Origin: Bacteroidota bacterium | GTDB lineage: Bacteria > Bacteroidota > Bacteroidia > UKL13-3 | Direction of reading: 5' to 3' | Length of the DNA stretch: 49,565 nucleotides | Assembly (NCBI GenBank): GCA_034439655.1 | Contig: JAWXAU010000003.1 | Location: 1 to 49,565, forward strand | In this document: positions 1-40,977 of the stretch, piece by piece | How the letters are laid out: each line of letters starts with the position of its first letter | Position numbering within the stretch: position 1 is the first letter of the stretch | The notes under the pieces: generated by a model | Seen by the model: only the letters and a program-made list of their open reading frames with translations | Told to the model about the DNA's origin: nothing | Databases searched by the model: none | Program-made: the position numbers and the translations under genes

Positions 1-1028
1 CCAGAAACTGTTTGGTTAAGTGTGCTGTTGTCCAACACCAAGTTTCCTGTTCCACTAATCGTACCATTACAAGCTACATCGCGTTTGGCAGTAAGGTTAA
101 AACCTGCGGTTGCAACTGTTACACCGCTAACGATGTTCAAGTTACTGTTCACAATAGTATTTCCAGACAAGGTATAAGTACCTGAGCCATTTAGGCTTAA
201 CCAGTAGTATGCGTTAGCTGGAAGTGTTTGTGGCGAGGTAAATATAATTTTACCATAGTTGTGGGTAAGCGTTCCGTTCTTGGTAAACGTGCCACCTATT
301 TGAAGCACACCTCCATTGTTTATGGTAAGTGTGGCTCCTGAATTAATGGTAAGGTTACTACAATATACGGTACTTGTAAGTACAGGTTGGAATGTACCAG
401 TACTGATAGTCACATTTGAACTGTTGGTGGGCACTGTGCCTGAACACCAGTTAGGGCCATAGGTCCATACTGTGCTATAAGCACCTATCCACACCGCTGC
501 AGTACCAATGCTAACTGTAACTTGGGTAGAGTATGCAGAACCACAAACACCTAAAGTTGATTTACAACGATAAGAGGTAGTAACCGAAGGCATAACCACA
601 TAAGTTGTTGTTGTTGCTCCAGATATATCTGTCCATGCACCTGCTCCAACTTTAGACTGCCATTGAGGGCTACCAGAATTTCCACTCACGCTCAATGTAT
701 CAGTTTGTCCTGAACAAAGTGCAGTAGATGTTACTGATGTAGTTCCACCAACAGGGTTAGAGTTGATAGTGATAGTGGTTGCAGGAGAAACACCTGTCTG
801 GCTATATTGGTCCGCGATAGTACATGTGATACTGTATGTGCCTGTATAGGCTGGGTTATAGCTATAGGTAGCATAACTTGTACCTGTACCAGTTAGCTTA
901 ACAGTAGCACCTTCTTTCCATGTATAGGTATAAGCATTATTTACTGGGCTTGCAGTGAATACTTGACCTATTCCTTGACACATAGAAGTCGCTGTATTAG
1001 GACTAATAGTTGCATTTGGTGCATTTGG
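1..1028 (-). other. Ig/PKD-like modules and beta-rich tail segment of the giant protein
   Basis: After the last GEVED module the protein continues with a segment from about residue 3915 that has CQGIGQVFTASPV and YTYTWKEGATV, typical of PKD/Ig-like folds, then a second Ig-like module with CSGQTDTLSVSG, PQWQSK and TSYRCKSTLGVC. From about position 500 leftwards the sequence becomes short Asn/Thr/Gly/Ile-rich strands (NLTINSGATLTINNGGVLQI), the look of a parallel beta-helix or autotransporter-like passenger, and it is still open at the window edge. Confidence 0.6.
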
Positions 1029-4000
1029 CCCCAGTACTACCACATTGTAATCTTCACATTCGCCAGCATAATAGTTACTACCGCAAGCTGTTGCTACCGA
1101 ATAACCATAATAAGTAGAAATTACACGCAAACGTGTTGTGCCAATTAAGGCACCAGAAGCCACGCTTACAGGTATATTAGCCAATGACGTTCCAACAGAA
1201 GTATTGCCGCCTAAGCTTTCGCCTGCATCTGCAAAGTCTCCATCTTGGTTAGCGTCAATATACACATTAACTGTTTGGGTATAACCACTGCCTGCTTCCA
1301 CTTTAATTGTATCGTTGCCAGTAATTGTTAACGAACATGTTTGGCTGCTGTAGTAGGTATAATAGTTTGGTCCACTACCATAAGATGTGGTATTGTCTAT
1401 TGACGATCCAATTTTTACTCTAGCTATATACATTTGTGTATTGTAACCATTGTAGCCCCATGTTGGAGTACAATATTGAGCAATAACTTTACGTTTGCCA
1501 GCAGGACAAGTAACAGTAGGGGTATGAGTTGCTGCATTAATGGTAATTTGTGAGCAACACGCAGTTACTGAATCGCCAGTAGTTGCACCTGTTTTGATAC
1601 TGTATGAAACCCAGAAGTGGTTAGTACCTGGTACTAAAGCTTGGGTTCCTGTTGCTGTGAATGTTCCATTGGGACCAACTTGTGTAGCAAACAAAGTAGT
1701 AGTGGCAAATGTGCCGCTATTTCCAGTAAAGTACACTCTAGCTGTGTCTATATCTCCAGAAGCATTCGTACTAGCCCCCGTGCTCAAGTTAAGTTGAGTG
1801 AGGTTAACAGTAGCACCAGTAGACATTACAACTTGTATATCGGCTACTTCATAATAACGCTTTCCTTTTTCAACTGGGCTGGTGGTAGGAGCCACGGTGG
1901 TAGAACTAGTGTATGACATGGCCACGTTAATCATTCTGCTTCCGCTTGGAGCTTGAGTTGTAGGAGTATAGTTGCTGCTACTAACTGTAACACTACTACA
2001 TTCAACATCAACATTGTTATTGGTGGTTGCTCCACTAGCAATATCATAAGTAACCCAGAACCAGTTTGTATCGCTCGCTAAAGCCATACTGCCTGATACG
2101 CTGAAATTACCTACTGGACCGCTACTCGTAGAACCGAACTGCGTAGATGCTGCAAACACATTGCTACTTCCTGTAAACCAAACTTTAGCATTTGCAATGT
2201 CATTGCTAGCACTGCTCGAACCATTGGTGTTTAAGTCTAGCTGTGTAATTGTTTTAGAGCCAGAACATCCTTTAAGTACAACAGGTATAGCAATCATCTG
2301 TTGATTGGTTGCCCCTGCAAATACATCCAAAGTAGAAGATGTGCTTGTAGTTACTGATACCACTGTTAGTGGGCTGTCGGTAATATTAACACTGTAGTCT
2401 TCTACCTCGCCACCGTAGTAGTAAGTATAATTACAAGGATCAAGTGCTTGACCATTGTTGGCATAGTACTCGTTTCTAACACGCATGCGTGTTGAACCTA
2501 AACTAGCACCACATGGCACTGTAAAGCTAAACGATACTGTACCTGTAGTACCATTCGTTCCAACTTGTCCCAGTTTTTCAGATGCATCAAAATTGGCATC
2601 ACCATCGAAGTCAATCCAGGCTGCTGTATATTGAGGAGTATAGTTGGTAGAAACACTAACACTTAAAGTATAGTTAGCAGCTTTTTGAATGTCGGTTGAC
2701 TGAGCCAAATAACTGTTATTGGTACTTGTGCTATTAGGAACACTAGTAGTATTGTTAATGGTTCCCATAGTTACATTGGTAATACCTGTAAGTGAGTATT
2801 GGTTATACTGATACGTTTGAGCTGTACAATAAGGTTGAACCAATTTGCGTTTGCCTGCTGGAGCAGTTACCGATGGAACATAGGTATTGGTAGTTCCATT
2901 TGAATCCAAATCGAATTGTTCGAAAGTACCATCAACCGAATCGCCAGTATTTCCTGAGGTAGGAACATCATAAGTCATCCAGAAATAATTGGTTCCTGGC
3001 AATAATGATTGATTTCCGTTAAACGATACATTGTAGGTAGGAGAGTTATAAACACTACCATATTGCGTGGTAGTTGCAAATGCGTTGCTAGTACCAGTAT
3101 ACCAACATTTGGCATTGCTAATATTTGTGCTTACATTTTGCGAGCCTACTACAGTAAATTCAAGGTTTGTTGCATTTTGTGCAGAGCCCGTTGTCATTAC
3201 AATTTGAGCACCTATAATTGCATTATTGGTGTTTCCTTTTACAATATTTGCTACACTTGCTTGCGTAGAAGTAGCACTAACATAAGAAGCAGGGATATTG
3301 ATGGTACGGCTTCCTGTAACGGTAGCAACCGATGAGTAGGTTGTAGCGTTAATAGTAGCTGCTGTACCTTCGGCATCAACCAAATTGCCTATTGAGGCAC
3401 CGCTTGCTATATCGTAAGTTAACCAGAACCAAGCAGAATCTGTGGTAAGGTTTTGTGTACCTGTTATACTAAATGCTGCACTTGGGCTGCTTAATGTAGA
3501 ACCAAATTGTGTGGTTGTAGCAAATGTAGGGCTAGAAGCAGTATACCAAACTTTGGCATTGGTAATATCGGAAGTGCTAGTAGTGCCTGCAGTGTTGAAG
3601 TTAAGCTGGGTTAAAGCAGCAGTACCACAACCTTGCGAGTTTACACGAATTCTCATAATTTGAGCATTGGTATTACTAGGCGATACATCAACCGTAACGG
3701 GTTGTGCACTTACTACTGAAGTAATATTACGTGGACTATCAATAATATCTACAGAATAATCTTCTGTTTCACCAGCAAAGTTGTAGTTATAGTTACATGG
3801 ATCCAATCCTCCTCCGTTAGCATAATATTCCCCTCTTACACGTAGACGTGTAGTACCAGCTAAAGCTGAACATGGAGTAGTAAAGTTGAAGGTACAAGTG
3901 GCTGTACTAGAATTCACTGTTACTTCACCTAGCTTTTCACCACTAGCGAAAGTTCCATCATTGTTCCAGTCAACCCATGCTGCAACGTATTGCGTGTAAT

Positions 4001-7000
4001 AGCCGCTGTTCGATGCTGCAACAGTCATGGTATATGCCTGTGCCTTTTGTACTGAAGCATGTTGTGCAGTATAATCTGAGTGCGTAGTAGAACTTGTACT
4101 TACTGTTGTAGTGTTATTAATACCTGCAACGGTAACGTTTGTCATTCCTACTGCATAACCATATTGATTATAACTGTAGTCTGAGGGAGTACAATATGGG
4201 GCATTGATACGACGCTTAGTAGAAACCGTAGAATTAGAAGGTGCATAACCTGTGGCTGCAATAACAACTGAGTCTAAAGTAGCAGTAACAGAATCATTGG
4301 TGGTAGCTCCTGTTTTAATATCATAAGATAGATAGAAATAGTTAGCTCCTGGAACCAATAATACTGTTGTGCTTCCAAATTTCATTGTGCCGTTAGGAGA
4401 CGCAATGGTAGAGCCAAATTGTGTTGTTGCTGCAAAGCCTGCACTACTTCCAGTATACCAAATTTTTGCATTTTGGATGTCGGTAGAAGGTGCTGTGCAA
4501 CCAGTTGTTGTAAGTTTTAAACTGTCTAGTGCAATGGTCGAACCTGTGCTGCTCATATTAATTAGAATACGAACTATCGACTGATTGTTAATACCTTTGG
4601 TTACCGCTGAGGTAATAGGCATTGACAAAGATGAGCTAACATAAGTAGCAGGGTAGTTGATTTGTCTTCCACCTGTAGGGCTACTATTTGTTGGATTATA
4701 GGTATTGCTGTTAATAGTTAATGAAGTAACTGCGGCATCTAAATAATTTGCAATTGTTGCTCCGCTTGCTACGTTATAAGTTAACCATAACCAACAAGAA
4801 TCGGGTACTGTTTGTGAACCACTAAAGCTCATAGCTCCATTTGGGCTAGATATTGTACTGCCATATTGCGTGGTTGTAGCAAACACATTAGTGGTTGTAT
4901 ACCATAATTTAGCATTGGTAATATCTGAAGTTGCTGTAGTACCATTGCTACCTGATGTATTCATGGTAACATTGGTTAAAGGATAGGTACCACAACCAGC
5001 CGCATTAATACGAACACCCATTATTTGGGCATTTGTTGCACCAGGCATAACATCAATTAATGAAGGGTGGAAAGCATTTGTGCTTGTAATGTTACGCGAG
5101 CTATCGGCAATATCTACAGAATAGTCTTCTGTTTCGCCTAGATAACCAGCATATTGATAACAAGGATCAAGAGCACCAGAACCACCATAATGGTTTTCGT
5201 GAACAATACGCATGCGGGTAGAACCTAAAGTAGCACTACAAGGTATTGTTACCGAAAGTTGGCCTGTGCTGCTTCCTCCTGAACCATCACTTGTTTCACC
5301 AATTTTTTCACCACTTGAGAAAGTGCCATCATTGTTCCAGTCAATCCAAACACCAGTATATCCTGTCCACCAGTAGTTTGCTACTTCCGCTGTTAAGCTT
5401 ATGGTATAGGTTTGTGATTTTTGCACAGAGGCTGTAAGGTAAGAATAATCATTAGTAGTACTTGAGCCCGAAGGAGCTGAAGTTGTATTATTAATTCCTG
5501 CAAATGTAACATTGGTAATACCTTCTGGGTATCCATACTGATTATAATAGTAATCGGATGGAGCACAATAACTAGGGTTGATTTTGCGTTTGGTAGAAAC
5601 AGTTGTATTTGTAGGTACTTGAGCCGTTCCGTTAACTGTTACCGAATCAAATTTAGCAGTAACCGAATCGTTAGTTGTAGCACCTGATTTAATATCGTAG
5701 GTAAGCCACAAATAATTATCGCCAGGGTTCACGTTATCGGTAGATGAGGTAAAGCTCATAACTCCGTTAGGTGCGGCAATGGTAGAACCATATTGGTAAG
5801 TGCTAGAAAATGTAGTGCTAGCCCCTGTTAGGAATAGTTTTGCGTTGCTGATATCTGTAGTGGGGTCTGTACACCCTGTTGTGTTTAACTTAATAGAGTT
5901 TAAGGGTACAGGGGATCCTGTGCTGCTTTGTGTTATTTTTAACAAAACGATTTTTTGTTGAACCCCGCCTTTTGCCACAGCCGATGTAAACGGCATAGTC
6001 ATAGAAGAGCTTACATAAGTTGACGGATTGTTAATGGCACGCGAACCTGAAGGGTCGCTATTGGTAGGCGTGCTACTTGAGCTGCTAACTACCATAGAGG
6101 TAATTTTTGCATCCACTACATTGGTAACAGTGGCTCCCGATGCAATATCATAGGTAAGCCAATACCAAACCGAGTCATTTGCTATAGTTGTAGAACCATT
6201 CACAGTAAATGCACCATTGGGACTGCTTACGGTACTTCCCCATTGGGTAGTAGTAGCAAATATGGGGCTATTGCCGGTGTACCAAACTTTGGCATTGGTA
6301 ATGTCGCCACTTGCATTGGTAGAACCTGGAGTGCCTGCAGTACTAAAGTTCAATTGTGTTACATTTAAATTGTTGCCACAACCCGCAGAATTAATACGAA
6401 GTTTCAATATTTGTTGGTTGGTAGAACCTGGTTGTACGTCCAAGTTTAGTGGAAGTGCTGCAACGCTAGAAAGAATGCTACGTGGGCTATCCAATATGTC
6501 GATGCTATAATCTTCTACTTCTCCCGCATAATAATAATTATATGCACATGGAACAAGATTTCCTCCATAGCCATAATACTCTGAACGTATACGCATACGA
6601 GTAGAACCGACTGCTGCAGTACATGGAGGGGTAATATTCATAGTATAGGTGCCAGAATAATTGCTCTGGTCAGAATATTCTCCTATATTTTCACCTGCAT
6701 CTGTCCAGTCTCCATCACCATTCCAGTCAATCCAAACTGCACCATAATAAGATGAATAGTTAGCTGACCAACTTACACTAATTGTAGAGGATTTAGCTTT
6801 TTGAAGTGTACCTGTTTGAGATGTATAGTCAGAATAAGTTGTTGTTGAGGATGGTACACTAGAAGTATTGTTAATGCCTCCCAAAGTTACATTGCTGATA
6901 CCTGTAACACCATATTGGTTGTACTGGTAATCGGAAGTCGTACAATAGGTAGCACGTATTCTGCTTTTGCCAGCTATCGTAGCAGGGCTTGCATTGTATG

Positions 7001-10000
7001 ATGACCCTCCAGTAGCAAGTCTAACTAAATTAGCGTTTACTGAATCGCCGAGCGTAGCTCCTGATGGGATATCATAAGTGAACCAGAAATAATTATCTCC
7101 TGGCTGTAATGCTGCAGAGCCATAGATGGAAAGAGTTCCATTAGGCGAAGCAATGGTAGCACCATACTGGGTAGTAGTAGCAAATGTGCTGCTGCTGCCT
7201 GTAAACCATACATTCGCATTAGTAACATCTGAAGCACTTGTGTTTCCTGTAGTATTAAAGATTAAAGAATCTAAATTTACACCAGCACCGCTGTTCATAG
7301 TAATTTTCACTCTAGCAACCTTATTGTTTGTAGAATTTGTTCCTAACGAAATGGTATATTTAGACCAGGTGTGTGTGTTATAGGTGGCAGGAGATGCAAT
7401 AGTTCTATCGCCCGAAGGGTTAGAAATAGATGGAGAATAAGTAGAAGCCCCTACAGTAATACCTGTACATTGAGCATCAATCTTATTGCCATTGGTAGCA
7501 CCACTGTTAACATTATATGTTAACCAGAAGTGGTTACTATCAGCGTTAAGGGCCTGTGTGCCGCTAATGCTGAAATTGCCATTAGGGGAAGCCACTGCTG
7601 AACCAAATTGTGTAATTGCTGCAAAAGCATTGCTTAAGCCTGTAAACCAAACTTTGGCATTGGTAATATCAGCTGCTGCTGCAGTGGTACCTGTTGTATT
7701 AAAATTCAACTGGGTAACATTCAATGTACCGCCACATCCACTAGTATTTATTAACATACCTATCACCTCAGCATTGTTAGAACCTTGAGGAACTATGCTA
7801 GTGTTTTGCTGGGTGGTTGTGCTGTTAGTATAAGTAAGTGGGTTGTTGTTTATATCAACTGTATAGTCTTCTGTTTCACCTGCGTTAGGATATACATAAT
7901 TACAAGGATCAAGAGGTTGACCACCATTGGCATAATACTCTTCACAGATACGCATACGTGTTTGACCTGTTACCACTCCAGCACAAGGAACTGTAAAGTT
8001 AATGGTGACTGTTCCACTTGAATTGCCAGTACTATATGCTGGTTGTCCAATTTTTTCGCCTGCATCAGCAAAGTCGCCATCTCCGTTCCAGTCAATCCAT
8101 GCTGCTATGTTACCATAACCATATTGGGCTAAATAACTAAGAGACAATGTATATGATTGGTACTTGTATAATGTAGCCGACTGTGCTGTATAATCATTAT
8201 ATTGTGCATAAGCAGTAGGTGTATTGGTTGTATTATTAATAGCACCCAAGCTCACATTTGTAATACCGTAGTTATAGGAATTGTAATACTTTGATGATAC
8301 ATCACAATAGTTAGGTATTACATAACGTTTGCCTGTAACAGTTGTAGGCGAGGGAGTATAGGTACTACCTGCAATTCGAACACGAGCTATGGTAGCATCT
8401 ATTGAATCGTCTGTAGTAGCACTTGTTTTGATGTCGTAGGTTAACCAAAAATAGTTAGTCCCTGGCAAAATCGCCATAGACTGACCAAAACGAATTTCAC
8501 CACCCGACACAGTAGTTAGCGTGCTTGCATATTGTGTTGTTGTAGCAAAAGCACTACTGTTGCCAGTATAGAAACAACGCATGTTTGATACATTAGTTGA
8601 GAAGTTTGCAGTACCTGTATTGGTGAATATCAAACTGTCCAAGTTAATTGAAGTACCCGTGCTCATCACTATTTCCAATCCTGCTATCTTTTGGTTGCTA
8701 GATCCTTTAGGCATGCCGTTGAAAGCTGTTTGGGTTAAGTATGAACTTGTATAGCTCATTGGGTTCAATATTTGTCTGTTTCCCGAAGGAGAAGGAATGG
8801 TAGTGCTATAGTTCACACTGTTTACATCTACGCTGTTCGCTTGTGCATCCAAATAGTCGCCAACAGTGGCAGAACTAGGCACATTGTAAACCAACCAGAA
8901 ATTGTTGGTATCGGTAACCAATGCCCTAGAACCTGTAATACTAAAATTAGCATTACTAGATAGGCTGCTACCTGCAATTTTACCAAACAAGGTAGTGGTA
9001 GCAAATGTATTGCTATTTCCAGTAAAATATATAATAGCAGAGTCTATATCGCCTTGAGGGTCGGTATTGCCTGTAGTATTTAAATTAATAGATGTTAAGG
9101 TTTGTGTTCCTGTACATCCTTTGGTAACTACTTGTACACGTACTATTTGGTTATTGTTAGTACCTGTACCAACAGCCAATGTTACATTTTGTAAAGTGGT
9201 AGCACTTACCACAGTAAGGGCACTATCGGAAATAGTTAGTGTATAATCTTCGATTTCATCATAGTAACCATAGTATAAATCGTTACAAGGGTCTTGAGTA
9301 CCACCAGTTTGATAAAAATACTCTTCTTTAACACGCATCCTGGCTTGGCCAAGAGCTGCATTGCAGGGAACAGTAAAATTAAATAAATTTGTAACCGGGC
9401 TGGTCGCATCCGTGAACTGAGCAAGTTTCTCAGTAGATTGGAAAGTTCCATCTTGGTTCCAATCAACCCATACAGAGGTATACATATACTGATATGTTTG
9501 CGAAGTAACTGAAACGGATTGTGGTGAACCTCTTTGAATTGTGGTGCTCATACTAGTATAATCAGTATAAGTATTATTAGCAGCAGGTAAACCTGTATTG
9601 TTATTGATGCTTCCTATGCTCACATTGGTGATACCACCATTGCCATAGTTGTATCCAGAGGTATAAGGAGTACATGGTTGTGGAATGATTTTGCGTTTAC
9701 CTGTAGGATCTGTTACACTTGGAGTATAAGGAGAGCCCGCAATGGTAACTTGACTAACTCTAGCATCAACACTATCGCCAGTGTTTGCCCCTGTTTTTAT
9801 ACTGTATACAACCCAGAAATAATTATTGCCTGGCAACAATGCTCTAGTTGAATTAACTGTATAGGTAGTAGTGGCTGCTGGGCTAAGTTGGTAGGTGCCA
9901 AACAGTGTGGTAGGAGCAAAAGTAGCACTGTTGCCTGTGTAATAGATACGGGCAGTGTCAACATTGCTTGTAATGTTATTCGTACCGTTTGTTTGCCATT

Positions 10001-12776
10001 TAAGTTGGGTCAAATTCACCGAAGAACCTGAGCTCATATTAATTTGGACACCCAATACCGCATGATACCTTGTTCCTTTACCAACAGAGCCAGTAGAGGG
10101 TTGAATACCTGTGGTGCTATTCCAAGTCATTGGGTTATCAATAACCCTACTGCCCGAAGGGGCTGTGCTTGAAGGTGTATAAGCATTTCCACCAACTGTA
10201 ACGCTGGTAAACTCTCCATCTACAACATTGGAAATAGTAGCACCTCCATTTAGGTTATATGCTAACCAAAACCAGTTTGTATCTGACACGAGTGCCTGAG
10301 TTCCTGTAATATTATAAGAAGCTGTCATGCTTCCTGTATACGTAGATCCAAACTGAGTGGTTGTGGCAAAAGCACTGCTATTGCCTGTCCAATATATTTT
10401 TGCACCAGTAACATCGCCAGATACACTAGTAGAACCATTAGCATTAAGGCTAAAGCTGGTTGCATTCAAGCTACCATTGCAACCTGAAGTTATTACCGGC
10501 ATTGCAATAATTTCTACATTGCTTGTACCGGGACTAACCGCTAAAGTGTTGTTTTGAGCTGTGAAACTAGCTGCATAGGAAAGCGGACTATCGGTAACAT
10601 TTACCAAATAGTCTTCTGTTTCACCATAACCATAAGTAATGCAGGGATCAGACCAATAACTGGCTGAATAATATGCCGCCATTACACGAATTTTTGTATA
10701 TCCCAAACTGCTTGTACAAGGAATAGGGATAACAAATGTGTGCGTGGTGCTTGCGGTACCGTTGCCAGAAGCAGTAGTCACTACTTGTTCTCCTGCATCG
10801 TAAAAGTCTCCATCTTGGTTGAAGTCAATCCAAGCAACAATTCCAATAGGACTACCACTGAATGCACCTAAACTTACAGCTAATGTCGGGTTGGACTTGC
10901 GTTGAACTGTGGCAAAAGAATTACTGGTAGTGTAAGCGGGGCTACTGGTAGCACCAGCAGTTGTGGTAACATTTAAGTTGTTGAGCGATACATTGGTAAT
11001 ACCCATTCCTGCAAGACCACTATAGTTATAAGAATGGCTTGGGGTACAATAAGCTGGAATAATTCTGCGATAACCAGCAGGGCTAGTTACAGTAGGTGTT
11101 TGTGCAGTTCCAGCAACCCTCATCCTAATAGCTCTAGCATCAACCGAGTCGCCTGTGTTAGCACCCGATTTGATATCGTAGGTTAACCAAAAATAGTTTG
11201 TATTGTTTGTAAGGGGCTGTGTACCCAGAAAGTTCATTTGACCATTTGGGGCAGCGATAGTACTTCCATACTGGGTGGTAGCAGCAAAAGCACTGCTATT
11301 AGCTGTATACCAAATTTTAGCATTGGAAATATTGGTGGTTGCATTGTTAGTACCATTGGTACCTGTTGTGTGCAATACAATAGAGTCCATATTAATAGGA
11401 GAACCAGTTACAGACATATCTACGTTTATACCTAGTATAGCATTAGTAGTTGAACCTTTAGTTACAAAAACAGTGCTTGCTTGGGTTACGGTAGACGATG
11501 TGTAAGTCATTGGAGGAATTAACTGTCTGTTTCCAACAGGAGACTTGTTTGTGCTTGGGAATGTAACTCCACTTATGTGAATATCGCCAGCATTTATTTT
11601 AGCATCCAAGTAATCGTACATTGTTGGACTGGCAACTACATCATACACCACGTATAAATAGGTAACTGCACATGGAAGGCTGTGATTTAAACCATAAAAC
11701 GACGCTTTGCCGCTTACAAAAGAAACACCAGCACCAGCACCTATTTGTGTAGCTGTGCTTGTGCTAAATACATTCGATGAAGAAACATAAAGTTTTACCT
11801 TTGATACGTCAGCATCGGCTGTGTTGTTTGAAGTAACTATAACAGTATCCAAAATCTGTGTTCCAGTAACACCTTGCACATCAATATCCATACGAATAAT
11901 TTCGTTTGCATTTGAACCTGCAGAAACTGAGTTTACACTAGCTGTACTGTAATTAATATTATTTACTGCCATTGATGAACCACTAGAAGGTGTATAGGTA
12001 TAGGTAAGGCCTTTATCGGGCCTGTTACCGCTACCGCCCATATTACAATAAGCAGAATTTGATGAACCATTTGCATCATTTGCAAACCAGGTTCCTGAAC
12101 TAGAGGTACGGTTTAAATAATCCGAGTTTGATGAGCCTCGTAGACCTACTTGTCTAGCGGTGTAGCTTCCCGTTGGTTGAGTTAGAACTGAGTCGTATAC
12201 TATTTTAATAACACCATTACAGGTGTTCATCCTAATTTGAAATCCAAATCTTCCATCTTGATAATAACAAGCATGATCTGTCCATTGAACGATAAATTCG
12301 CTACCTACCTGTTGGTAGATAATAGAGGGAGAGGTGCCAGAAGCACCTGTATAACTATAATAACCACTTGCACAAATTACACCGCTGTAACTTGATGAAG
12401 AACTGATTGGTTGTGGGTCGCAGTTTGGTACTGTTGACCCAAAAACCACATAGCCGTTTGCTTGAATTTGCAAACTTGTGTAGGAACTACCATTAAAGTT
12501 AAAAGAGGGAATGGTAATCGCACTTGATACACCACAGTAATCATAAGTACCAGACTTAAACACCGAAGCACCACCACCAGTAGTAATAGGTGTGTAAGTT
12601 CCCAGAGCTTTACTGAAACTGTAGTTAGAGGTTAGCTGAGCTTTTGCACCCCCGTAGGAGAACAACATCAGCATGATCATGCCAAGACAAGACATCAATG
12701 TCCTTCTTGACGAGCGGGTGGGCGTCGGAGATACCGAGCCAAGCCACTCATTTTGTTGAGTAGATTTGGATAACAT
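1..12776 (-). CDS. Giant modular secreted surface protein (GEVED and neuraminidase-N-terminal-type repeats), C-terminus beyond left edge
   Basis: One frame stays open from an ATG at 12776 to the left edge: at least 4,258 codons, with coherent sequence in the same frame at both ends. Residues 1-46 look like a signal peptide with a long n-region (Arg24-Arg25), a hydrophobic core rich in Met/Leu and a cut after Ala-Lys-Ala46. Residues about 47-266 are a beta-rich domain of the kind found at the front of large Bacteroidota secreted proteins. Residues about 267-3915 are eight triple units, each two modules resembling the BNR-neuraminidase N-terminal domain (motifs such as NAKVWYTGNS and NYFWLTYDI) plus one GEVED module (ends GETEDY). 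Then come two Ig/PKD-like modules and a repetitive beta-rich stretch. No sialidase Asp-box domain or type IX sorting domain is visible, but the C-terminus is missing. Likely a long surface adhesin or stalk (inference). Next gene upstream is dnaN, 481 bp away. Confidence 0.9.
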   Translation of the reverse strand, partial: MLSKSTQQNEWLGSVSPTPTRSSRRTLMSCLGMIMLMLFSYGGAKAQLTSNYSFSKALGTYTPITTGGGASVFKSGTYDYCGVSSAITIPSFNFNGSSYTSLQIQANGYVVFGSTVPNCDPQPISSSSSYSGVICASGYYSYTGASGTSPSIIYQQVGSEFIVQWTDHACYYQDGRFGFQIRMNTCNGVIKIVYDSVLTQPTGSYTARQVGLRGSSNSDYLNRTSSSGTWFANDANGSSNSAYCNMGGSGNRPDKGLTYTYTPSSGSSMAVNNINYSTASVNSVSAGSNANEIIRMDIDVQGVTGTQILDTVIVTSNNTADADVSKVKLYVSSSNVFSTSTATQIGAGAGVSFVSGKASFYGLNHSLPCAVTYLYVVYDVVASPTMYDYLDAKINAGDIHISGVTFPSTNKSPVGNRQLIPPMTYTSSTVTQASTVFVTKGSTTNAILGINVDMSVTGSPINMDSIVLHTTGTNGTNNATTNISNAKIWYTANSSAFAATTQYGSTIAAPNGQMNFLGTQPLTNNTNYFWLTYDIKSGANTGDSVDARAIRMRVAGTAQTPTVTSPAGYRRIIPAYCTPSHSYNYSGLAGMGITNVSLNNLNVTTTAGATSSPAYTTSNSFATVQRKSNPTLAVSLGAFSGSPIGIVAWIDFNQDGDFYDAGEQVVTTASGNGTASTTHTFVIPIPCTSSLGYTKIRVMAAYYSASYWSDPCITYGYGETEDYLVNVTDSPLSYAASFTAQNNTLAVSPGTSNVEIIAMPVITSGCNGSLNATSFSLNANGSTSVSGDVTGAKIYWTGNSSAFATTTQFGSTYTGSMTASYNITGTQALVSDTNWFWLAYNLNGGATISNVVDGEFTSVTVGGNAYTPSSTAPSGSRVIDNPMTWNSTTGIQPSTGSVGKGTRYHAVLGVQINMSSGSSVNLTQLKWQTNGTNNITSNVDTARIYYTGNSATFAPTTLFGTYQLSPAATTTYTVNSTRALLPGNNYFWVVYSIKTGANTGDSVDARVSQVTIAGSPYTPSVTDPTGKRKIIPQPCTPYTSGYNYGNGGITNVSIGSINNNTGLPAANNTYTDYTSMSTTIQRGSPQSVSVTSQTYQYMYTSVWVDWNQDGTFQSTEKLAQFTDATSPVTNLFNFTVPCNAALGQARMRVKEEYFYQTGGTQDPCNDLYYGYYDEIEDYTLTISDSALTVVSATTLQNVTLAVGTGTNNNQIVRVQVVTKGCTGTQTLTSINLNTTGNTDPQGDIDSAIIYFTGNSNTFATTTLFGKIAGSSLSSNANFSITGSRALVTDTNNFWLVYNVPSSATVGDYLDAQANSVDVNSVNYSTTIPSPSGNRQILNPMSYTSSYLTQTAFNGMPKGSSNQKIAGLEIVMSTGTSINLDSLIFTNTGTANFSTNVSNMRCFYTGNSSAFATTTQYASTLTTVSGGEIRFGQSMAILPGTNYFWLTYDIKTSATTDDSIDATIARVRIAGSTYTPSPTTVTGKRYVIPNYCDVSSKYYNSYNYGITNVSLGAINNTTNTPTAYAQYNDYTAQSATLYKYQSYTLSLSYLAQYGYGNIAAWIDWNGDGDFADAGEKIGQPAYSTGNSSGTVTINFTVPCAGVVTGQTRMRICEEYYANGGQPLDPCNYVYPNAGETEDYTVDINNNPLTYTNSTTTQQNTSIVPQGSNNAEVIGMLINTSGCGGTLNVTQLNFNTTGTTAAAADITNAKVWFTGLSNAFAAITQFGSAVASPNGNFSISGTQALNADSNHFWLTYNVNSGATNGNKIDAQCTGITVGASTYSPSISNPSGDRTIASPATYNTHTWSKYTISLGTNSTNNKVARVKITMNSGAGVNLDSLIFNTTGNTSASDVTNANVWFTGSSSTFATTTQYGATIASPNGTLSIYGSAALQPGDNYFWFTYDIPSGATLGDSVNANLVRLATGGSSYNASPATIAGKSRIRATYCTTSDYQYNQYGVTGISNVTLGGINNTSSVPSSTTTYSDYTSQTGTLQKAKSSTISVSWSANYSSYYGAVWIDWNGDGDWTDAGENIGEYSDQSNYSGTYTMNITPPCTAAVGSTRMRIRSEYYGYGGNLVPCAYNYYYAGEVEDYSIDILDSPRSILSSVAALPLNLDVQPGSTNQQILKLRINSAGCGNNLNVTQLNFSTAGTPGSTNASGDITNAKVWYTGNSPIFATTTQWGSTVSSPNGAFTVNGSTTIANDSVWYWLTYDIASGATVTNVVDAKITSMVVSSSSSTPTNSDPSGSRAINNPSTYVSSSMTMPFTSAVAKGGVQQKIVLLKITQSSTGSPVPLNSIKLNTTGCTDPTTDISNAKLFLTGASTTFSSTYQYGSTIAAPNGVMSFTSSTDNVNPGDNYLWLTYDIKSGATTNDSVTAKFDSVTVNGTAQVPTNTTVSTKRKINPSYCAPSDYYYNQYGYPEGITNVTFAGINNTTSAPSGSSTTNDYSYLTASVQKSQTYTISLTAEVANYWWTGYTGVWIDWNNDGTFSSGEKIGETSDGSGGSSTGQLSVTIPCSATLGSTRMRIVHENHYGGSGALDPCYQYAGYLGETEDYSVDIADSSRNITSTNAFHPSLIDVMPGATNAQIMGVRINAAGCGTYPLTNVTMNTSGSNGTTATSDITNAKLWYTTTNVFATTTQYGSTISSPNGAMSFSGSQTVPDSCWLWLTYNVASGATIANYLDAAVTSLTINSNTYNPTNSSPTGGRQINYPATYVSSSLSMPITSAVTKGINNQSIVRILINMSSTGSTIALDSLKLTTTGCTAPSTDIQNAKIWYTGSSAGFAATTQFGSTIASPNGTMKFGSTTVLLVPGANYFYLSYDIKTGATTNDSVTATLDSVVIAATGYAPSNSTVSTKRRINAPYCTPSDYSYNQYGYAVGMTNVTVAGINNTTTVSTSSTTHSDYTAQHASVQKAQAYTMTVAASNSGYYTQYVAAWVDWNNDGTFASGEKLGEVTVNSSTATCTFNFTTPCSALAGTTRLRVRGEYYANGGGLDPCNYNYNFAGETEDYSVDIIDSPRNITSVVSAQPVTVDVSPSNTNAQIMRIRVNSQGCGTAALTQLNFNTAGTTSTSDITNAKVWYTASSPTFATTTQFGSTLSSPSAAFSITGTQNLTTDSAWFWLTYDIASGASIGNLVDAEGTAATINATTYSSVATVTGSRTINIPASYVSATSTQASVANIVKGNTNNAIIGAQIVMTTGSAQNATNLEFTVVGSQNVSTNISNAKCWYTGTSNAFATTTQYGSVYNSPTYNVSFNGNQSLLPGTNYFWMTYDVPTSGNTGDSVDGTFEQFDLDSNGTTNTYVPSVTAPAGKRKLVQPYCTAQTYQYNQYSLTGITNVTMGTINNTTSVPNSTSTNNSYLAQSTDIQKAANYTLSVSVSTNYTPQYTAAWIDFDGDANFDASEKLGQVGTNGTTGTVSFSFTVPCGASLGSTRMRVRNEYYANNGQALDPCNYTYYYGGEVEDYSVNITDSPLTVVSVTTSTSSTLDVFAGATNQQMIAIPVVLKGCSGSKTITQLDLNTNGSSSASNDIANAKVWFTGSSNVFAASTQFGSTSSGPVGNFSVSGSMALASDTNWFWVTYDIASGATTNNNVDVECSSVTVSSSNYTPTTQAPSGSRMINVAMSYTSSTTVAPTTSPVEKGKRYYEVADIQVVMSTGATVNLTQLNLSTGASTNASGDIDTARVYFTGNSGTFATTTLFATQVGPNGTFTATGTQALVPGTNHFWVSYSIKTGATTGDSVTACCSQITINAATHTPTVTCPAGKRKVIAQYCTPTWGYNGYNTQMYIARVKIGSSIDNTTSYGSGPNYYTYYSSQTCSLTITGNDTIKVEAGSGYTQTVNVYIDANQDGDFADAGESLGGNTSVGTSLANIPVSVASGALIGTTRLRVISTYYGYSVATACGSNYYAGECEDYNVVVLGPNAPNATISPNTATSMCQGIGQVFTASPVNNAYTYTWKEGATVKLTGTGTSYATYSYNPAYTGTYSITCTIADQYSQTGVSPATTITINSNPVGGTTSVTSTALCSGQTDTLSVSGNSGSPQWQSKVGAGAWTDISGATTTTYVVMPSVTTSYRCKSTLGVCGSAYSTQVTVSIGTAAVWIGAYSTVWTYGPNWCSGTVPTNSSNVTISTGTFQPVLTSTVYCSNLTINSGATLTINNGGVLQIGGTFTKNGTLTHNYGKIIFTSPQTLPANAYYWLSLNGSGTYTLSGNTIVNSNLNIVSGVTVATAGFNLTAKRDVACNGTISGTGNLVLDNSTLNQTVS
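1029..11976 (-). repeat. Eight tandem ~1.36-kb coding units (module A, module B, GEVED)
   Basis: GEVED signature codons lie on the minus strand at 10608-10625, 9243-9260, 7863-7880, 6507-6524, 5121-5138, 3756-3773, 2394-2411 and 1047-1064, that is at residues 718, 1173, 1633, 2085, 2547, 3002, 3456 and 3905. The spacing is 449-462 residues. Each unit has a type A module (a Gly-Cys pair near its start, e.g. in SAGCGGNLNV-like strings, ends with PSG.R), a type B module (starts with a TKG/EKG segment, contains TYDIKTGA, ends GKR) and a GEVED module opening with YCTPS and containing WIDWNGDGDF-like Asp-rich loops. The first unit starts near residue 267. Copies are clearly diverged, not recent identical duplicates. 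The second copy ends DEIEDY and the last GECEDY in place of the usual GETEDY or GEVEDY. Confidence 0.9.
11977..12640 (-). other. N-terminal beta domain of the giant protein
   Basis: Residues about 47-266 of the giant protein. The segment begins QLTSNYSFSKALGTYTPI just after the predicted signal-peptide cut and contains a FNFNGSSYTSLQIQANGYV stretch followed by an aromatic- and Gly-rich region. Similar segments stand at the front of many large secreted Bacteroidota proteins, usually before Fn3, Ig or GEVED modules (family knowledge). I cannot name a precise family. It is not repeated elsewhere in the window. Confidence 0.55.
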
Positions 12777-12824
12777 AATTTGATTAGATTAATTTAATTG
12801 ATTTTTCTAAGTAAGTTGTGTGAG

Positions 12825-12832
12825 CAAAGTCA
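12825..12832 (-). promoter_or_regulatory. Possible promoter -7 box of the giant gene
   Basis: The minus strand reads TGACTTTG, one mismatch from the Bacteroidota TAnnTTTG box, about 50 bases before the ATG at 12776. No clear -33 element was seen. A weak candidate. Confidence 0.25.
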
Positions 12833-13198
12833 GAAAATAAATTTTCTGTGCTTTCGATGAGGCAATGCTCGAACCTCTGTTCCATAAAGAACTGCTGGGT
12901 ACGCTGAAAGCTAAGAACGTTTTGTTGAAGAGTACAAAATTTCACCATAGGCTTTTGTTTAGGTTTTTTTTTAAAGTGTTAAACTTTTGTATATATTAAG
13001 TGGTTCGGCCACCTACCGCTAACACAAGTACCAAAAACACTACGAACTGCATTTAAATATGATGTTCAGTACATGAAATTGACACCTCTGATAGAATATG
13101 GAATTTACGTGTTTTTCTTCAAAAAGGAGTATTTAAAAAAATTTTTATTCCTTGATTTTCTACGTTTTATAATTTCGTCTGCCTTGTTTAAATCTTGT

Positions 13199-13227
13199 GC
13201 ACATCGTGCCTTTCGACACAATGGTGC
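13199..13227 (-). terminator. Stem-loop downstream of dnaN
   Basis: The minus strand can fold GCACCATTGTG against CACGATGTGC: ten pairs with one bulged C and one G-T wobble around an eight-base loop. It starts 30 bases after the dnaN stop. There is no U-run directly after it on the minus strand, so it is either a weak or Rho-type 3' end or an RNA-stabilising structure. Confidence 0.4.
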
Positions 13228-13257
13228 TTAGCTTTGTTTTACTTATTTTGTTTTTAG

Positions 13258-14376
13258 TTAAACATTTATCATCATTGGCATGATGAGCATGAGTATGTCT
13301 TCATCGCTATCGTTTTCTGCTGGCAATAATAGTCCCGCCCTGTTGGGCATTGAAAACTCCATCCTCACATCTTCCGTGTCCATAGCATTAAGCATCTCGG
13401 TTAGAAAACGGGCATTAAAGCCTATTTCAATATCGGATCCTTCATAATTACAAGACAATCTTTCGGTGGCCTCGTTGGCAAAATCATAATCTTCTGCAGA
13501 TATTGTCATCTCACTTCCGGCAATCTTTAATCGAACCTGGTTAGTTGTTTTATTGGCATATATAGAAACCCTTTTCATCGCACTGATAAAATCGTTTCGG
13601 TTAATGCTTAACTTATTTGGGTTCTCAGTCGGTATAACCGCCGTATAATCAGGATAACGCTCGTCTATCAAACGGCAAATTAGGCTTACGCCTGCAAAGG
13701 AGAAAAAAGCATAAGAGGTATTAAAATCTATTTTTACCGGGGTATCATCATTGGGCAGGGAGCTTTTTAAAAGGTTCATCGCTTTTTTGGGCAAAATGAA
13801 TGATGTTTCAAAACCATTGTTGAACCCCTTCCTTTGCACTCTCACCAGTCGGTTGGCATCTGTTGCCACAAAATTTATGTTGCTATCGGACACTTGGCAA
13901 TAAACACCTGTTAGGTTAATACGCAACTCGTCGGTGCCTGTTGCAAAAATTGTCTTATTAATGGCTTTTGATAGTACTTTAGCTGAAAGCACAATTGAGT
14001 TGTCGCTTTCTAGCACAGGAAATTTTGGAAAATCTTTAGCGTCATTTCCGGTAAGTTTATACCGCCCATTTCCTGTGTTTATTTCTATACTTTTGCTTGC
14101 CTCATCCACAGAGAATGTAACAGGCTGGGTGGGAAGGTTTTTCAAAGTTTCAAGAGAAACCTTAGATGGGACTGCAATGTCAATATCGCTATCGGCTTCT
14201 ACCTTTAATGAGGTTGTCATAAACGTTTCCAAGTCGGTAGTGGTGATTTTAAGATTTCCGTCCTTTATTTCAAAAAGGAAGTTTTCCAAAATAGGAATAA
14301 GTGGCTTGGAAACCACTACACCGTCTACTAAATCTAGTTGTTTAAGCAGGTCGTTGGTTGATACTATAAATTTCAT
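13258..14376 (-). CDS. dnaN: DNA polymerase III subunit beta (sliding clamp)
   Basis: 372 residues, the usual length of the clamp. It forms the ring that tethers DNA polymerase III and other replication or repair proteins to DNA. Recognisable parts are the N-terminal MKFIVSTNDLLKQL, the central LTGNDAKDFPKFP, the ATDANRLVR segment, LICRLIDERYPDY, and the C-terminal tail LMLIMPMMINV that corresponds to the usual PMR/L-type end near the peptide-binding pocket. The three clamp domains are present in order. It follows the S1/P1-type nuclease gene but is separated by a terminator-like hairpin and its own promoter-like box, so it is probably transcribed alone. dnaA is not in the window. Confidence 0.97.
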   Translation of the reverse strand: MKFIVSTNDLLKQLDLVDGVVVSKPLIPILENFLFEIKDGNLKITTTDLETFMTTSLKVEADSDIDIAVPSKVSLETLKNLPTQPVTFSVDEASKSIEINTGNGRYKLTGNDAKDFPKFPVLESDNSIVLSAKVLSKAINKTIFATGTDELRINLTGVYCQVSDSNINFVATDANRLVRVQRKGFNNGFETSFILPKKAMNLLKSSLPNDDTPVKIDFNTSYAFFSFAGVSLICRLIDERYPDYTAVIPTENPNKLSINRNDFISAMKRVSIYANKTTNQVRLKIAGSEMTISAEDYDFANEATERLSCNYEGSDIEIGFNARFLTEMLNAMDTEDVRMEFSMPNRAGLLLPAENDSDEDILMLIMPMMINV

Positions 14377-34351: not shown

Positions 34352-35962
34352 TTAAAATTTAACCTTATCTAGGTCAATATTAATATTATCTAGATCAATA
34401 TTTTGTGTTATAGGTATTATATCATCGAACAAAAACGTTTTTTCGGGATTTTTGCCCTTATTTATATAACCATCATCCATTTTATTATTCAAATTTATAT
34501 CGTCCACAATCCTTATCCTATAGTTTCCGGGCAACAAATATTTATATTCTAGTTTATTAGAACCATTTATAATATTACTCCTTATAGGGTTTAGTTTTTC
34601 ATCGAGTAGTTCTACCAATAAGGGTTTGGCTTGTGTTTGATTCATGGTTATTATTAAGCTACCATATAAATCCGATTTTTCTGTTTTGAATTTTATGGAA
34701 AAGGAATCTATTTTTTGATTAAAAATATCATTAAAAGCTCCATCTTTAAATTTTATTAAATAATTCTTGTCTGGTTTTAAATCTATTGGTAATACATATT
34801 GACTTTTTTCGTTATCTCTAAAAAAGGAGTTACCTACGTATTTTATTTTAATAGAATCTTCGTACAGTTCCAGGTTTCTATCATCATAGTTCCAAATAGG
34901 ACTGTGAAAACGGATGTTTAAGGTATCAAATAAATCTAGCTTACCGTTTTCTTTGATATTATTTGTAAGCCAGCATTGCCGCCTTATTTTATTGCTCATT
35001 TGGTGTGCCATTGTTACATCACGCCACCACCAATCATTCACATACACATCAAAATGTCCGTCCTGCATTTCAGCCGAGGGAGAAAACCAAATTAAGGTGT
35101 CTTCATCAATTCCACCGAATTCTAATAAGTAAGCCTCATCTGTAAACAAGTTGTTTTCCACCAATCTTTTATAAGCACCTTTGGGAGCCACAACAAATTC
35201 GAAAACACCATAGTTTTTACAGAAGTATTTTCTAAGTTCAGGCGTCTCTAAACTTTTATCATATGATGTTCTAATTGTAATATTATTGGTATTGCTATCT
35301 ACGTAAAACATAGGACCATAAAAACCAAACATTTCATTTTTGTCAGGCTTATTATTGTTGTTCTCGTCTTTGAAAACATAGATTCTATAGTTCTCGTCCT
35401 TTACTCCGCCGAAATCAAACTCACCCTTACTGCTTGAGAAGGTGACGTAATCAGGTTCTGTTCTAAATATGGAAGAGTCTTCATTTTGTTTATTTAAAAT
35501 AACAGTATATCCCGTGCCGTCATGTCCTGTGTACGCATCAATTATATTTCCTTTTATATTTCCCTTATTGATTATATTTCCTGTAGAAAAATAGAAATCA
35601 ATTAAGTTATTGGTATTCCCTTCGTTTATATCAGAAATTGCTTCTTTTAACTGTATATGATATGTTGTGTTTGGTTTTAAGGAATCTTTTAGCTTTATAT
35701 TTAATACCTTTCCGACTGCTTCATATTCTGGAGGATTAGTTTGCTTTGGGAAAATATTAATATTGTTTTCTCCACGAATCAATAGGATGTTTTCATCAAA
35801 ACGAAGCTTAATAATATTACCAGTAAAATTGATGGAATAATTTTCTGGGATTGATTTGATTTGTTTTGGTGGAGTTTTGTCTTTTTGCCCTCCAGAGGGA
35901 GTGCCGATATTCGCACATGAAGCAAATAAAAGCAATGTAAAAGTAAAGTATAATGTTTTCAT
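34352..35962 (-). CDS. Ig-like (Big_5 type) domain lipoprotein
   Basis: 536 residues. Lipoprotein signal MKTLYFTFTLLLFASC, with SC as lipobox, then ANIGTPSGGQKDKTPP. Residues about 30-130 are an Ig-like domain of the SbsA/Big_5 type (FDENILLIRGENNI, LNIKLKDSLKPNTTYHI). The rest repeats beta-rich segments with DENNNNKPDKNEMFG and DINLNNKMDDGY, calcium-loop-like Asp/Asn stretches. Such proteins are widespread and unassigned in Bacteroidota; surface anchoring is inferred. Its start overlaps the methyltransferase stop as ATGA, the last gene of the ybeY-mnmG operon. Confidence 0.75.
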   Translation of the reverse strand: MKTLYFTFTLLLFASCANIGTPSGGQKDKTPPKQIKSIPENYSINFTGNIIKLRFDENILLIRGENNINIFPKQTNPPEYEAVGKVLNIKLKDSLKPNTTYHIQLKEAISDINEGNTNNLIDFYFSTGNIINKGNIKGNIIDAYTGHDGTGYTVILNKQNEDSSIFRTEPDYVTFSSSKGEFDFGGVKDENYRIYVFKDENNNNKPDKNEMFGFYGPMFYVDSNTNNITIRTSYDKSLETPELRKYFCKNYGVFEFVVAPKGAYKRLVENNLFTDEAYLLEFGGIDEDTLIWFSPSAEMQDGHFDVYVNDWWWRDVTMAHQMSNKIRRQCWLTNNIKENGKLDLFDTLNIRFHSPIWNYDDRNLELYEDSIKIKYVGNSFFRDNEKSQYVLPIDLKPDKNYLIKFKDGAFNDIFNQKIDSFSIKFKTEKSDLYGSLIITMNQTQAKPLLVELLDEKLNPIRSNIINGSNKLEYKYLLPGNYRIRIVDDINLNNKMDDGYINKGKNPEKTFLFDDIIPITQNIDLDNINIDLDKVKF

Positions 35963-39183: not shown

Positions 39184-40977
39184 TTATCTGATTAGATCGA
39201 AAACGCCACTGTAGTTTTTATGTAGCTTGTCAAGTCCTTTTATATATCCCCAAAACATATAGGTTGATTCGGGGTAATAATTCCCGTGAGAGTCTTTACC
39301 GTCCCAACCCTTTCTTATTTCATCTCCTTCCAGGGTTTTCAGTATGCTTCCCCAGCGATCGTATATTCTAACATATGATTTATCGTAATCTATATATGAA
39401 CCAACCGGTTTCCATTTTCTATTTACGCCAAAAGGACAAAAAGCATTTGGAAAATAGATTTGGTGCTCACGCAATTCACAGAATATGTTTGAACGTGATC
39501 GTTCAACCTTTCCAGTATATGGATTTGTTTTCCCTTCTACGGCCTCAATATAGTAGCAAACACCATGGCAGCTCATGTCATACGGCAATTCTAAATCATG
39601 ATAAAAACTGTCTGTTGGTTTATTTGCTCCCAATAAATTATAAGTACTTGCAGCCCCACAATTTCCACCTCTATAAACATAATACAAAGAAACTCCGTTG
39701 TACGGCCAACCTTGATAATGAAACCATTTAAGCTCTAAATCTGTATCGTACAAACCAAGAATACCAAAAGAGTCTAAAATCATATTATTGGCAATATTGG
39801 AACCACTGTCTGATATGTTCCCGCAGTTGTCAAAAACTTGTATTTTATAATAATACCTTTTATTAGCTACGTCTACTTTAGAATCAGTATAGGAATATAT
39901 AAATTGGTTATTAAAAGGAATTTTGGCAGTTTGCAACCATGAAAAGGAATCTCCTTCACTTCTCAATAGTTTAAAAGAGCTTATTGCGGCAGAGGTGTCT
40001 GTTACCCATTCAATTTCAACTTTTTGGTCATCGGTAACTGTTGCATGATTTATATAGTTAATTTTAGGCTTTTTAATATTTTTTAAGTTATAACCAATAA
40101 TATTTGATGTCGAAAAAACCTTACTATCATCTCTTGTTGCTCTTACAAAAACAGCAACACTATCGCCTGAAACAAGGCTAGCTATTTGGGCAGAATCGGT
40201 AATACCGTCTACTGTTTTTTCCAAAACAAACGGACTACCATTTCTTGAAACATATACATCGTATTGGAGTACTTGCCAAGCCTGGTAAAGGGTCCAGCGA
40301 ATACTTACAAAACCCTTACAATCATTTAATTGACTACTTAAAAGGATGGAACTATGGAAGGATGGAACAGCAGCCGTTAAACCACAGCTATCGAAAGCAG
40401 CAATACCAAAAGAATAGGAAGAGTCTTTAACATTAGAGCCTTTAATAATAAAAAAGGTATCAGAGGTTTGCCCGATGATAATGTTAGAGGCTCCAAGATT
40501 TTGAACTATTAAATAACCAGCAATGTCAGGTGAACTATTTTTCTGCCAACCTAAGAAAAGGTCACCATTTACATAGTTAACACTCACAGAGTCTAATGAC
40601 GATGTTTGAGGCCTGTTAATGTCTATAGTTATTGTGTCGGAAGCAAGTGAGGAATCGCCATTACAAAGATTATGATATATAAGAAAATATTGCCAATCTT
40701 TAGATATTTTATTAGCTCCTTTGTGCGAATAAGTATTTTGTGCCAAAAACATTACACTATCAATAATATCAAAAGACTTGGTGGTGTCTTGTCTTCCCCA
40801 AATATGCATACTTATAAAGCCATTACAGCCATCGGTTGGGGTAATCCAATATAGTATAATGTCAGAATCATTATCGGAGACACACGCCCTCCTTAAGTTA
40901 GGGGTCTGAGAAAATGAATTATGCATTGTAAAACACAGCACAATAAACAACATTAATCTTTTCGTATTGTATATCAT
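39184..40977 (-). CDS. Secreted Fn3-like protein with gliding-motility-associated C-terminal (CHU_C) domain
   Basis: 597 residues. Signal peptide ends around NSFSQ. The interior has several Fn3-like segments, e.g. VNGDLFLGWQKNSSPDIAGY and KRYYYKIQVFDNCGNIS. Residues about 505-597 are the CHU_C domain: IYFPNAFCPFGVNRKWKPVG, VRIYDRWGSILKTL, GWDGKDSHGNYYPESTYMFW. This domain is a type IX secretion signal or anchor of the B type; the protein is thus predicted to be exported to the cell surface. It starts 11 bases after the M16 gene and ends 13 bases before ybeY. Confidence 0.88.
   Translation of the reverse strand: MIYNTKRLMLFIVLCFTMHNSFSQTPNLRRACVSDNDSDIILYWITPTDGCNGFISMHIWGRQDTTKSFDIIDSVMFLAQNTYSHKGANKISKDWQYFLIYHNLCNGDSSLASDTITIDINRPQTSSLDSVSVNYVNGDLFLGWQKNSSPDIAGYLIVQNLGASNIIIGQTSDTFFIIKGSNVKDSSYSFGIAAFDSCGLTAAVPSFHSSILLSSQLNDCKGFVSIRWTLYQAWQVLQYDVYVSRNGSPFVLEKTVDGITDSAQIASLVSGDSVAVFVRATRDDSKVFSTSNIIGYNLKNIKKPKINYINHATVTDDQKVEIEWVTDTSAAISSFKLLRSEGDSFSWLQTAKIPFNNQFIYSYTDSKVDVANKRYYYKIQVFDNCGNISDSGSNIANNMILDSFGILGLYDTDLELKWFHYQGWPYNGVSLYYVYRGGNCGAASTYNLLGANKPTDSFYHDLELPYDMSCHGVCYYIEAVEGKTNPYTGKVERSRSNIFCELREHQIYFPNAFCPFGVNRKWKPVGSYIDYDKSYVRIYDRWGSILKTLEGDEIRKGWDGKDSHGNYYPESTYMFWGYIKGLDKLHKNYSGVFDLIR

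Follow-up and report, generated by a model that had tools for sequence, protein, structure and literature searches.

What kind of protein is encoded by a frame that stays open for more than 12.7 kb up to the very edge of a contig, and where would such a protein act? The window analysed here, a stretch of 49,565 bases, is one entire contig (G000:C3:1-49565), and the frame in question, at positions 3..12776 of the minus strand, comprises 4,258 codons without a stop, with an ATG at 12776; the other two minus-strand frames over the gene contain 231 and 352 stops. A sequence-only reading of the window had claimed a single frame of at least 12.77 kb and more than 4,250 residues, complete on the right and incomplete on the left, and both points are confirmed: the 5' end of the gene is complete at its right side, and the 3' end is lost at the left, where the contig edge cuts it. 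The layout proposed in the same reading, namely a signal peptide, an N-terminal beta domain, eight A-B-GEVED units, Ig/PKD modules and a beta-rich tail, was found in full:

3..12776, minus strand: giant protein CDS, 4,258 residues; about 480 codons missing at the 3' end, judged by an orthologue
12639..12776, minus strand: signal peptide region, residues 1-46 (RR..LMSCLGMIMLMLFSYGGAKA/QL), assigned by eye and by conservation in orthologues
11979..12644, minus strand: N-terminal beta domain, putative head, residues 45-266; all-beta model
10590..11978, minus strand: unit 1, with A 267-418, B 419-571, GEVED 572-729
9225..10589, minus strand: unit 2, with A 730-878, B 879-1029, GEVED 1030-1184
7845..9224, minus strand: unit 3, with A 1185-1335, B 1336-1485, GEVED 1486-1644
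6489..7844, minus strand: unit 4, with A 1645-1792, B 1793-1939, GEVED 1940-2096
5103..6488, minus strand: unit 5, with A 2097-2247, B 2248-2398, GEVED 2399-2558
3738..5102, minus strand: unit 6, with A 2559-2705, B 2706-2856, GEVED 2857-3013
2376..3737, minus strand: unit 7, with A 3014-3158, B 3159-3311, GEVED 3312-3467
1029..2375, minus strand: unit 8, with A 3468-3615, B 3616-3763, GEVED 3764-3916
507..1028, minus strand: two Ig/PKD-like modules, residues 3917-4090; weak Y_Y_Y match, approximate boundaries
3..506, minus strand: start of a beta-rich, beta-solenoid-like tail, residues 4091-4258; weak Fil_haemagg match

In Pfam searches, the giant protein matched PF14873 (BNR_assoc_N/CBM93) in 16 stretches (E=1e-128) and PF20009 (GEVED) in eight (E=1.9e-117), and no further family above the cut-off; a match to DUF1687 was set aside as below the cut-off, and a match to NF047971, the NCBIfam thermolysin model, as arising through GEVED. 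Since both A and B match PF14873, they belong to one family as two sub-types; when six single modules were checked alone against this model, five exceeded its cut-off. Profiles made from the protein's own copies return a perfect A-B-G order eight times over, gap-free from residue 267 to 3916 (24 consecutive domains), and matched nothing in 20 shuffles of the giant protein. The GEVED motifs announced for residues 718, 1173, 1633, 2085, 2547, 3002, 3456 and 3905 are all in place, the one at 1173 as DEIEDY.

Fibrillar adhesin-like proteins are described as having a long tandem stalk of rigid, rod-like form, at least one known adhesive domain and a surface anchor (PMC8286594, PMC9210967), and GEVED is defined as a fibrillar-adhesin domain, its conserved role being given as unknown, in PMC10952558. 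The giant protein shares with this class its great length (4,258 residues or more) and its 24 tandem domains; no adhesive domain of known ligand was detected in it by Pfam. The explanation that we prefer, with a probability of roughly two in three, is a T9SS-exported, fibrillar-adhesin-like rigid stalk with a binding head. The earlier proposal, a stalk or adhesin that reaches out from the cell, is upheld as the best reading by the GEVED repeats and the T9SS tail of an orthologue, with adhesion itself presumed.

The gene appears to be soundly assembled. An orthologue from the same genus (G002:C14) is 77% identical to the giant protein across 4,225 residues and is colinear with it, the best match of each unit being the same-numbered unit at 64-83% identity, which makes misassembly unlikely. 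The eight copies are on average only about 40-43% identical to each other, so the array is old and a recent tandem duplication is ruled out. Given old copies and an orthologue that is colinear unit by unit, we see no sign of an assembly artefact.

The lost 3' end can be judged from another orthologue of the same genus, G001:C93, which is complete there and continues for 479 residues past the cut point, so that the full giant protein should measure about 4,740 residues. These extra residues hold the beta-rich tail, then a T9SS type A sorting domain, and nothing else; the C-terminus matches TIGR04183 (E=4.4e-12, 45.8 bits against a cut-off of 23) and PF18962 (E=3e-11). Joining the neighbouring contig had been proposed as the way to find a T9SS domain at the C-terminus; the domain was found, in the complete orthologue rather than in such a contig. 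Together with the Sec signal peptide recognized by eye, the TIGR04183 match in the orthologue gives the features of a type A substrate. The genome that carries the giant gene (G000) encodes the T9SS translocon SprA (2462 bits, over the cut-off), which was the T9SS component searched for, and its type A sorting tails number 150 or more. The presumed T9SS end, read from the orthologue, and the predicted stalk anatomy are both well supported.

Within its own genome, the last 600 bases of the giant gene's contig match nothing else; another contig begins within the final 25 codons of a gene of this kind (G000:C64:2-76) and may belong to a paralogue. In G002, two giant paralogues end at contig edges with exactly 149 identical bases in common, and two other contigs share exactly 149 edge bases, in which the terminator and the 24 codons before it are included; the same exact number, 149, is shared at contig edges by two giant paralogues of G005. 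The shared edges are:

L045 16355-16503 and the end of L048: shared 149-base edge
Ends of L164 and L165: shared 149-base edge
Ends of L046 and L047: shared 149-base edge

Paralogue identity climbs from about 60-70% to 100% towards the 149-base edge, and the giant gene's contig stops in the same stretch, about 33 codons beyond the break point of the paralogues. The simplest reading would be an assembly word length of 149 combined with near-identical paralogue 3' ends that are kept alike by recombination, and concerted evolution of the T9SS tail region among the giant paralogues is probable. As paralogues have their 3' ends in common, giant genes may thus end up truncated at contig edges when metagenomes are assembled.

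The strongest competitor of the stalk, which we nevertheless regard as unlikely, is a polyvalent glycan binder, in which each of the 16 PF14873 copies would bind sugar, GEVED would serve as a spacer, and the protein would grip polysaccharide or mucilage along its whole length. Membership of the 16 stretches in the CBM93 family is clear, their glycan binding putative. PF14873 corresponds to CBM93, which binds sialoglycans in the NanH sialidase of Tannerella forsythia (PMC9472817), and the profile of the 16 A and B copies matches solved sialidases of Bacteroidetes in their N-terminal domains (4q6k, E=1e-7; 6myv; 6mrv), while a phmmer search of the PDB with one 300-residue A-B stretch gave no match. 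However, the A and B copies are without roughly 19-26 mid-domain residues of the sialidase domains, they vary among themselves at most positions, and their few invariant residues (F74 and Y111 only) reveal no fixed pocket, a point that is not decisive because the CBM93 binding residues are not known. Moreover, the same modules follow an M4-type protease as accessory domains (AGAG arrays) in the same genome.

A different kind of evidence comes from the cysteines of the array. Two GEVED cysteines, C1 and C3, are nearly universal, both being kept in 197 of the 203 GEVEDs examined from other taxa, and would form an intra-domain bond; a third, C2, is absent from all 203. Wherever C2 is present in the arrays studied here, the A domain that follows the GEVED has one cysteine near its residue 37. 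Among a first set of 76 GEVED-A junctions, 68 have both cysteines, eight have neither and none is discordant; a second set of 26, drawn from 38 further loci fetched later and scored in alignment columns fixed beforehand, gave 20, six and none, so that the 102 pooled junctions stand at 88 with both, 14 with neither and zero discordant. In the giant protein, the first A domain, with no GEVED before it, and the last GEVED, with no A after it, are without the cysteines of this pair. As C2 and the A-domain cysteine occur together or not at all, the pattern suggests an inter-domain disulfide at each GEVED-to-A junction:

10479..10718, minus strand: predicted disulfide 1, Cys687-Cys766, GEVED-to-A
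9114..9365, minus strand: predicted disulfide 2, Cys1138-Cys1221, GEVED-to-A
7734..7985, minus strand: predicted disulfide 3, Cys1598-Cys1681, GEVED-to-A
6378..6623, minus strand: predicted disulfide 4, Cys2052-Cys2133, GEVED-to-A
4992..5240, minus strand: predicted disulfide 5, Cys2513-Cys2595, GEVED-to-A
3627..3872, minus strand: predicted disulfide 6, Cys2969-Cys3050, GEVED-to-A
2265..2513, minus strand: predicted disulfide 7, Cys3422-Cys3504, GEVED-to-A

The exceptions fit a predicted disulfide as well. Where a terminal GEVED retains C2, the domain behind it is of a different kind and has a cysteine early on (in GKDKxxC or a similar motif); where a first A domain retains its cysteine, it is preceded by a beta-helix with a late one. 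To what extent could common descent account for the pattern? A first tree-corrected test on 100 GEVEDs (four agreeing pairs, none opposing, p 0.125) was not significant, and for this reason the 38 further loci were fetched and the test was repeated with 150 GEVEDs, the C2 column being left out when their tree was built. Here the presence of C2 and being followed by an A/B domain agreed in about eight independent pairs, with none opposing (median p 0.008), which argues against common descent as the whole explanation; the pair-level version of the test, C2 against its partner cysteine, is thin, with only two independent contrasts, both agreeing (p 0.5). We lean somewhat towards a covalent clip that is written by neighbourhood, with paired cysteines present only where a GEVED and an A domain, or another domain with a suitable cysteine, face each other, and thus towards a disulfide-coupled, length-adjustable T9SS stalk. 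If this is true, whole units could be inserted or removed with no unpaired cysteine left behind. As a separate observation, the window genome encodes M4-thermolysin-like secreted proteins with A-GEVED (AGAG) arrays followed by a T9SS tail (L052 123-7616, L052 7866-13784 and L049 1672-9174), and the GEVED-A cysteine pair is absent from these arrays.

Fold models agree with a chain of beta domains. The AlphaFold model of a GEVED-A-B-GEVED stretch is all beta (mean pLDDT 88.8), its pTM of 0.57 leaving the inter-domain angle unresolved, and Foldseek searches with it returned only tandem Ig-like arrays, among them filaments such as mastigonemes, all unspecific (TM <0.25). The head (residues 45-266) was modelled confidently as an all-beta domain (pLDDT 86, pTM 0.89); no Pfam family could be assigned to it, and Foldseek found no PDB match better than E=0.35. 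Among viral models, its best match is an uncharacterised phage protein (A0A6J5P7T5, E=7.5e-7, TM 0.62). The domain is present in 37 of 58 related genomes, and the module is widespread in Bacteroidota. In addition, a motif scan found D-x-[ND]-x-D-[GA]-x-[FW] once in each GEVED (8/8) and nowhere else in the giant protein; it resembles an EF-hand loop, and a calcium ion is probably bound there.

A further alternative is a released matrix or sheath protein that forms extracellular fibres or a coat, the type A tail leading to release, as is possible for type A substrates (PMC12618676). Its predicted richness in disulfides, the calcium-type motif, the very regular sequence and the filament proteins among the Foldseek matches speak for this explanation. 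Nevertheless, none of those matches, all Ig arrays with TM below 0.25, is specific, and one long chain with a distinct head and tail has the layout of an adhesin rather than of a self-assembling protein, and we hold a matrix role to be improbable. A moving gliding adhesin like SprB of Flavobacterium johnsoniae is yet harder to sustain. SprB is likewise giant, repetitive and T9SS-exported, and the present genome is that of a member of the Bacteroidota with SprA, but the orthologue's tail is of type A, whereas the tail of SprB is of type B and is matched by a cognate PorP/SprF partner, and SprB stops moving when given a type A tail (PMC12618676); moreover, the next gene downstream in the orthologue contig encodes a 343-residue epimerase-like enzyme, not SprF. 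Finally, the accessory region of a secreted enzyme with its catalytic domain in the missing 3' part, an idea prompted by the same modules behind M4 proteases in the same genome and by the NCBIfam thermolysin match of GEVED, is scarcely credible, since the corresponding part of the orthologue holds only the beta-rich tail and the sorting domain.

The rigid stalk thus remains our favoured explanation, and the relatives of the giant protein indicate how its length may vary. The giant protein has eight units; its paralogues have seven (G002:C13), eight (G005:C52) and 12 (G005:C21). When paralogues are compared, units one and two and the final two mostly pair by position, which means that gain and loss of units take place inside the array. 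In other genera of the same family, A-B-G relatives have two to four units, some with other domains in front, and the architecture, with 2 to 12 units, is thus a recurrent one within the family. From these other genera, five more A-B-G proteins are complete and have type-A-like sorting tails, as judged by eye. GEVED arrays are common in Bacteroidota outside the family, and the strict A-B-G triplet was not seen there among the fetched loci beyond the five nearest. The sequence-only reading had taken the exact domain order to be undescribed. It was indeed not found in the literature searched, including the available part of the paper that defines GEVED (PMC10952558), yet it is a habit of the family and not unique to this genome.

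The genomic setting of the gene has been rearranged. Its upstream neighbour is:

13258..14376, minus strand: dnaN, DNA polymerase III beta subunit

The position behind dnaN is occupied by a giant gene in G000, G002 and G005, whereas G022, G012, G033 and G004 have none there. By sequence, the giant gene is the orthologue of G002:C14 and not of G002:C13, which adjoins dnaN, so that two paralogues exchanged places or one of them moved; similarity to G002:C14 begins 23 bases before the ATG (12777-13257 compared with L071 and L067). A block of an ECF sigma factor, an outer membrane protein and a DUF7619 T9SS protein lies downstream of the 3' end of a giant gene in the window genome (L163 1-4718) and upstream of the orthologous giant gene in G001 (L068 4714-9116), and this shift is a rearrangement around giant genes. 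In the 3.5-Mb genome G000, GEVED domains number 42 and BNR_assoc_N domains 28, and C161 and C179 have further open frames, 3,700 to 6,100 residues in length. Elsewhere in the window, 39184-40977 encodes a protein of 597 residues whose type B (CHU_C) T9SS tail is weak, and the product of 34352-35962, which lies where the G+C content is low (0.29), contains Big_5 and DUF2141.

From these data we propose the following tentative mechanism. The protein would be exported by Sec and then by the T9SS through a type A C-terminal sorting domain, and its C-terminal end would lie at the cell surface, with the beta-rich tail and the two Ig-like modules leading to the stalk. The stalk itself would be a rod in which eight A-B-GEVED units supply 24 Ig-like beta-sandwich domains in all, and a distinct beta head at its N-terminal tip would be the likely site of contact with a ligand. 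Each GEVED-to-A junction would be stiffened by the predicted inter-domain disulfide and probably also by a calcium ion in each GEVED, and at 4 nm or less per domain the head may be held some 80-100 nm from the cell. The reach would evolve as entire units are added or removed within the array, which numbers 2 to 12 units in relatives, while two units at either end remain fixed. Thus GEVED acquires a candidate stiffening role that can be tested, as it combines a unit junction, a calcium-type loop and an extra cysteine, the last in exactly those cases where the next domain is a PF14873 domain bearing the partner cysteine. The giant T9SS proteins of environmental Bacteroidota are mostly unnamed, and the order of head, N units, Ig pair, tail and sorting domain offers a readable stalk grammar for them.

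Various aspects of this architecture have parallels in known systems. The streptococcal CshA and CshB, as presented for PF20009 in PMC10952558, are also long secreted repeat proteins with GEVED, an N-terminal head and a C-terminal anchor, but their GEVED follows the ligand-binding NR2, whereas here eight GEVEDs each follow two PF14873 domains and the tail, as seen in the orthologue, is of the T9SS. By Pfam, the giant protein lacks CshA_NR2, the ligand-binding domain that usually accompanies GEVED, and this places it outside the CshA type. In the NanH sialidase (PMC9472817), the family of the A and B modules occurs as one PF14873 copy per enzyme; here there are 16 copies, no enzyme, and a missing mid-domain stretch. 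Among T9SS-exported surface adhesins of F. johnsoniae (PMC12618676), where proteins with type A tails are anchored statically at the surface or released and the type B tail of the SprB kind directs its bearer to the gliding machinery, RemA has the tail kind in common with the giant protein's orthologue and differs as a lectin-bearing protein of other architecture; the SprB combination of a TIGR04131/CHU_C tail with an SprF neighbour is not found here. Periscope proteins, as cited in PMC9210967, likewise have stalks of variable length with a reach set by repeat number, but their repeats vary between related strains, and here units of about 40% identity vary between paralogues and species.

The extenders of the RTX adhesins MhLap, AhLap and MpIBP and Salmonella SiiE resemble the giant protein in having many tandem beta-sandwich domains and a stiffening by calcium, which for the giant protein is predicted (PMC7493085, PMC5466336). 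They are exported by the T1SS and bind calcium in their linkers, in contrast to T9SS export and predicted disulfides at one of three junction types, and no sequence relation to them was seen. The Mobiluncus mulieris adhesin (7,651 residues, 51 Ig-like domains) is another giant Ig array with covalent cross-links, but these ester, isopeptide and disulfide bonds lie inside domains (PMC10619420), whereas here they are predicted between neighbouring domains. The stiffening device proposed here would differ from both the calcium linkers (PMC7493085) and the within-domain cross-links (PMC10619420), and, if the clip is true, would represent a principle distinct from those of the RTX and Gram-positive adhesins. 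Overall, the giant protein may be expected, by analogy, to work like the RTX adhesins, SiiE, the Mobiluncus adhesin and CshA, as a stiffened chain of beta-sandwich domains between a head and an anchor.
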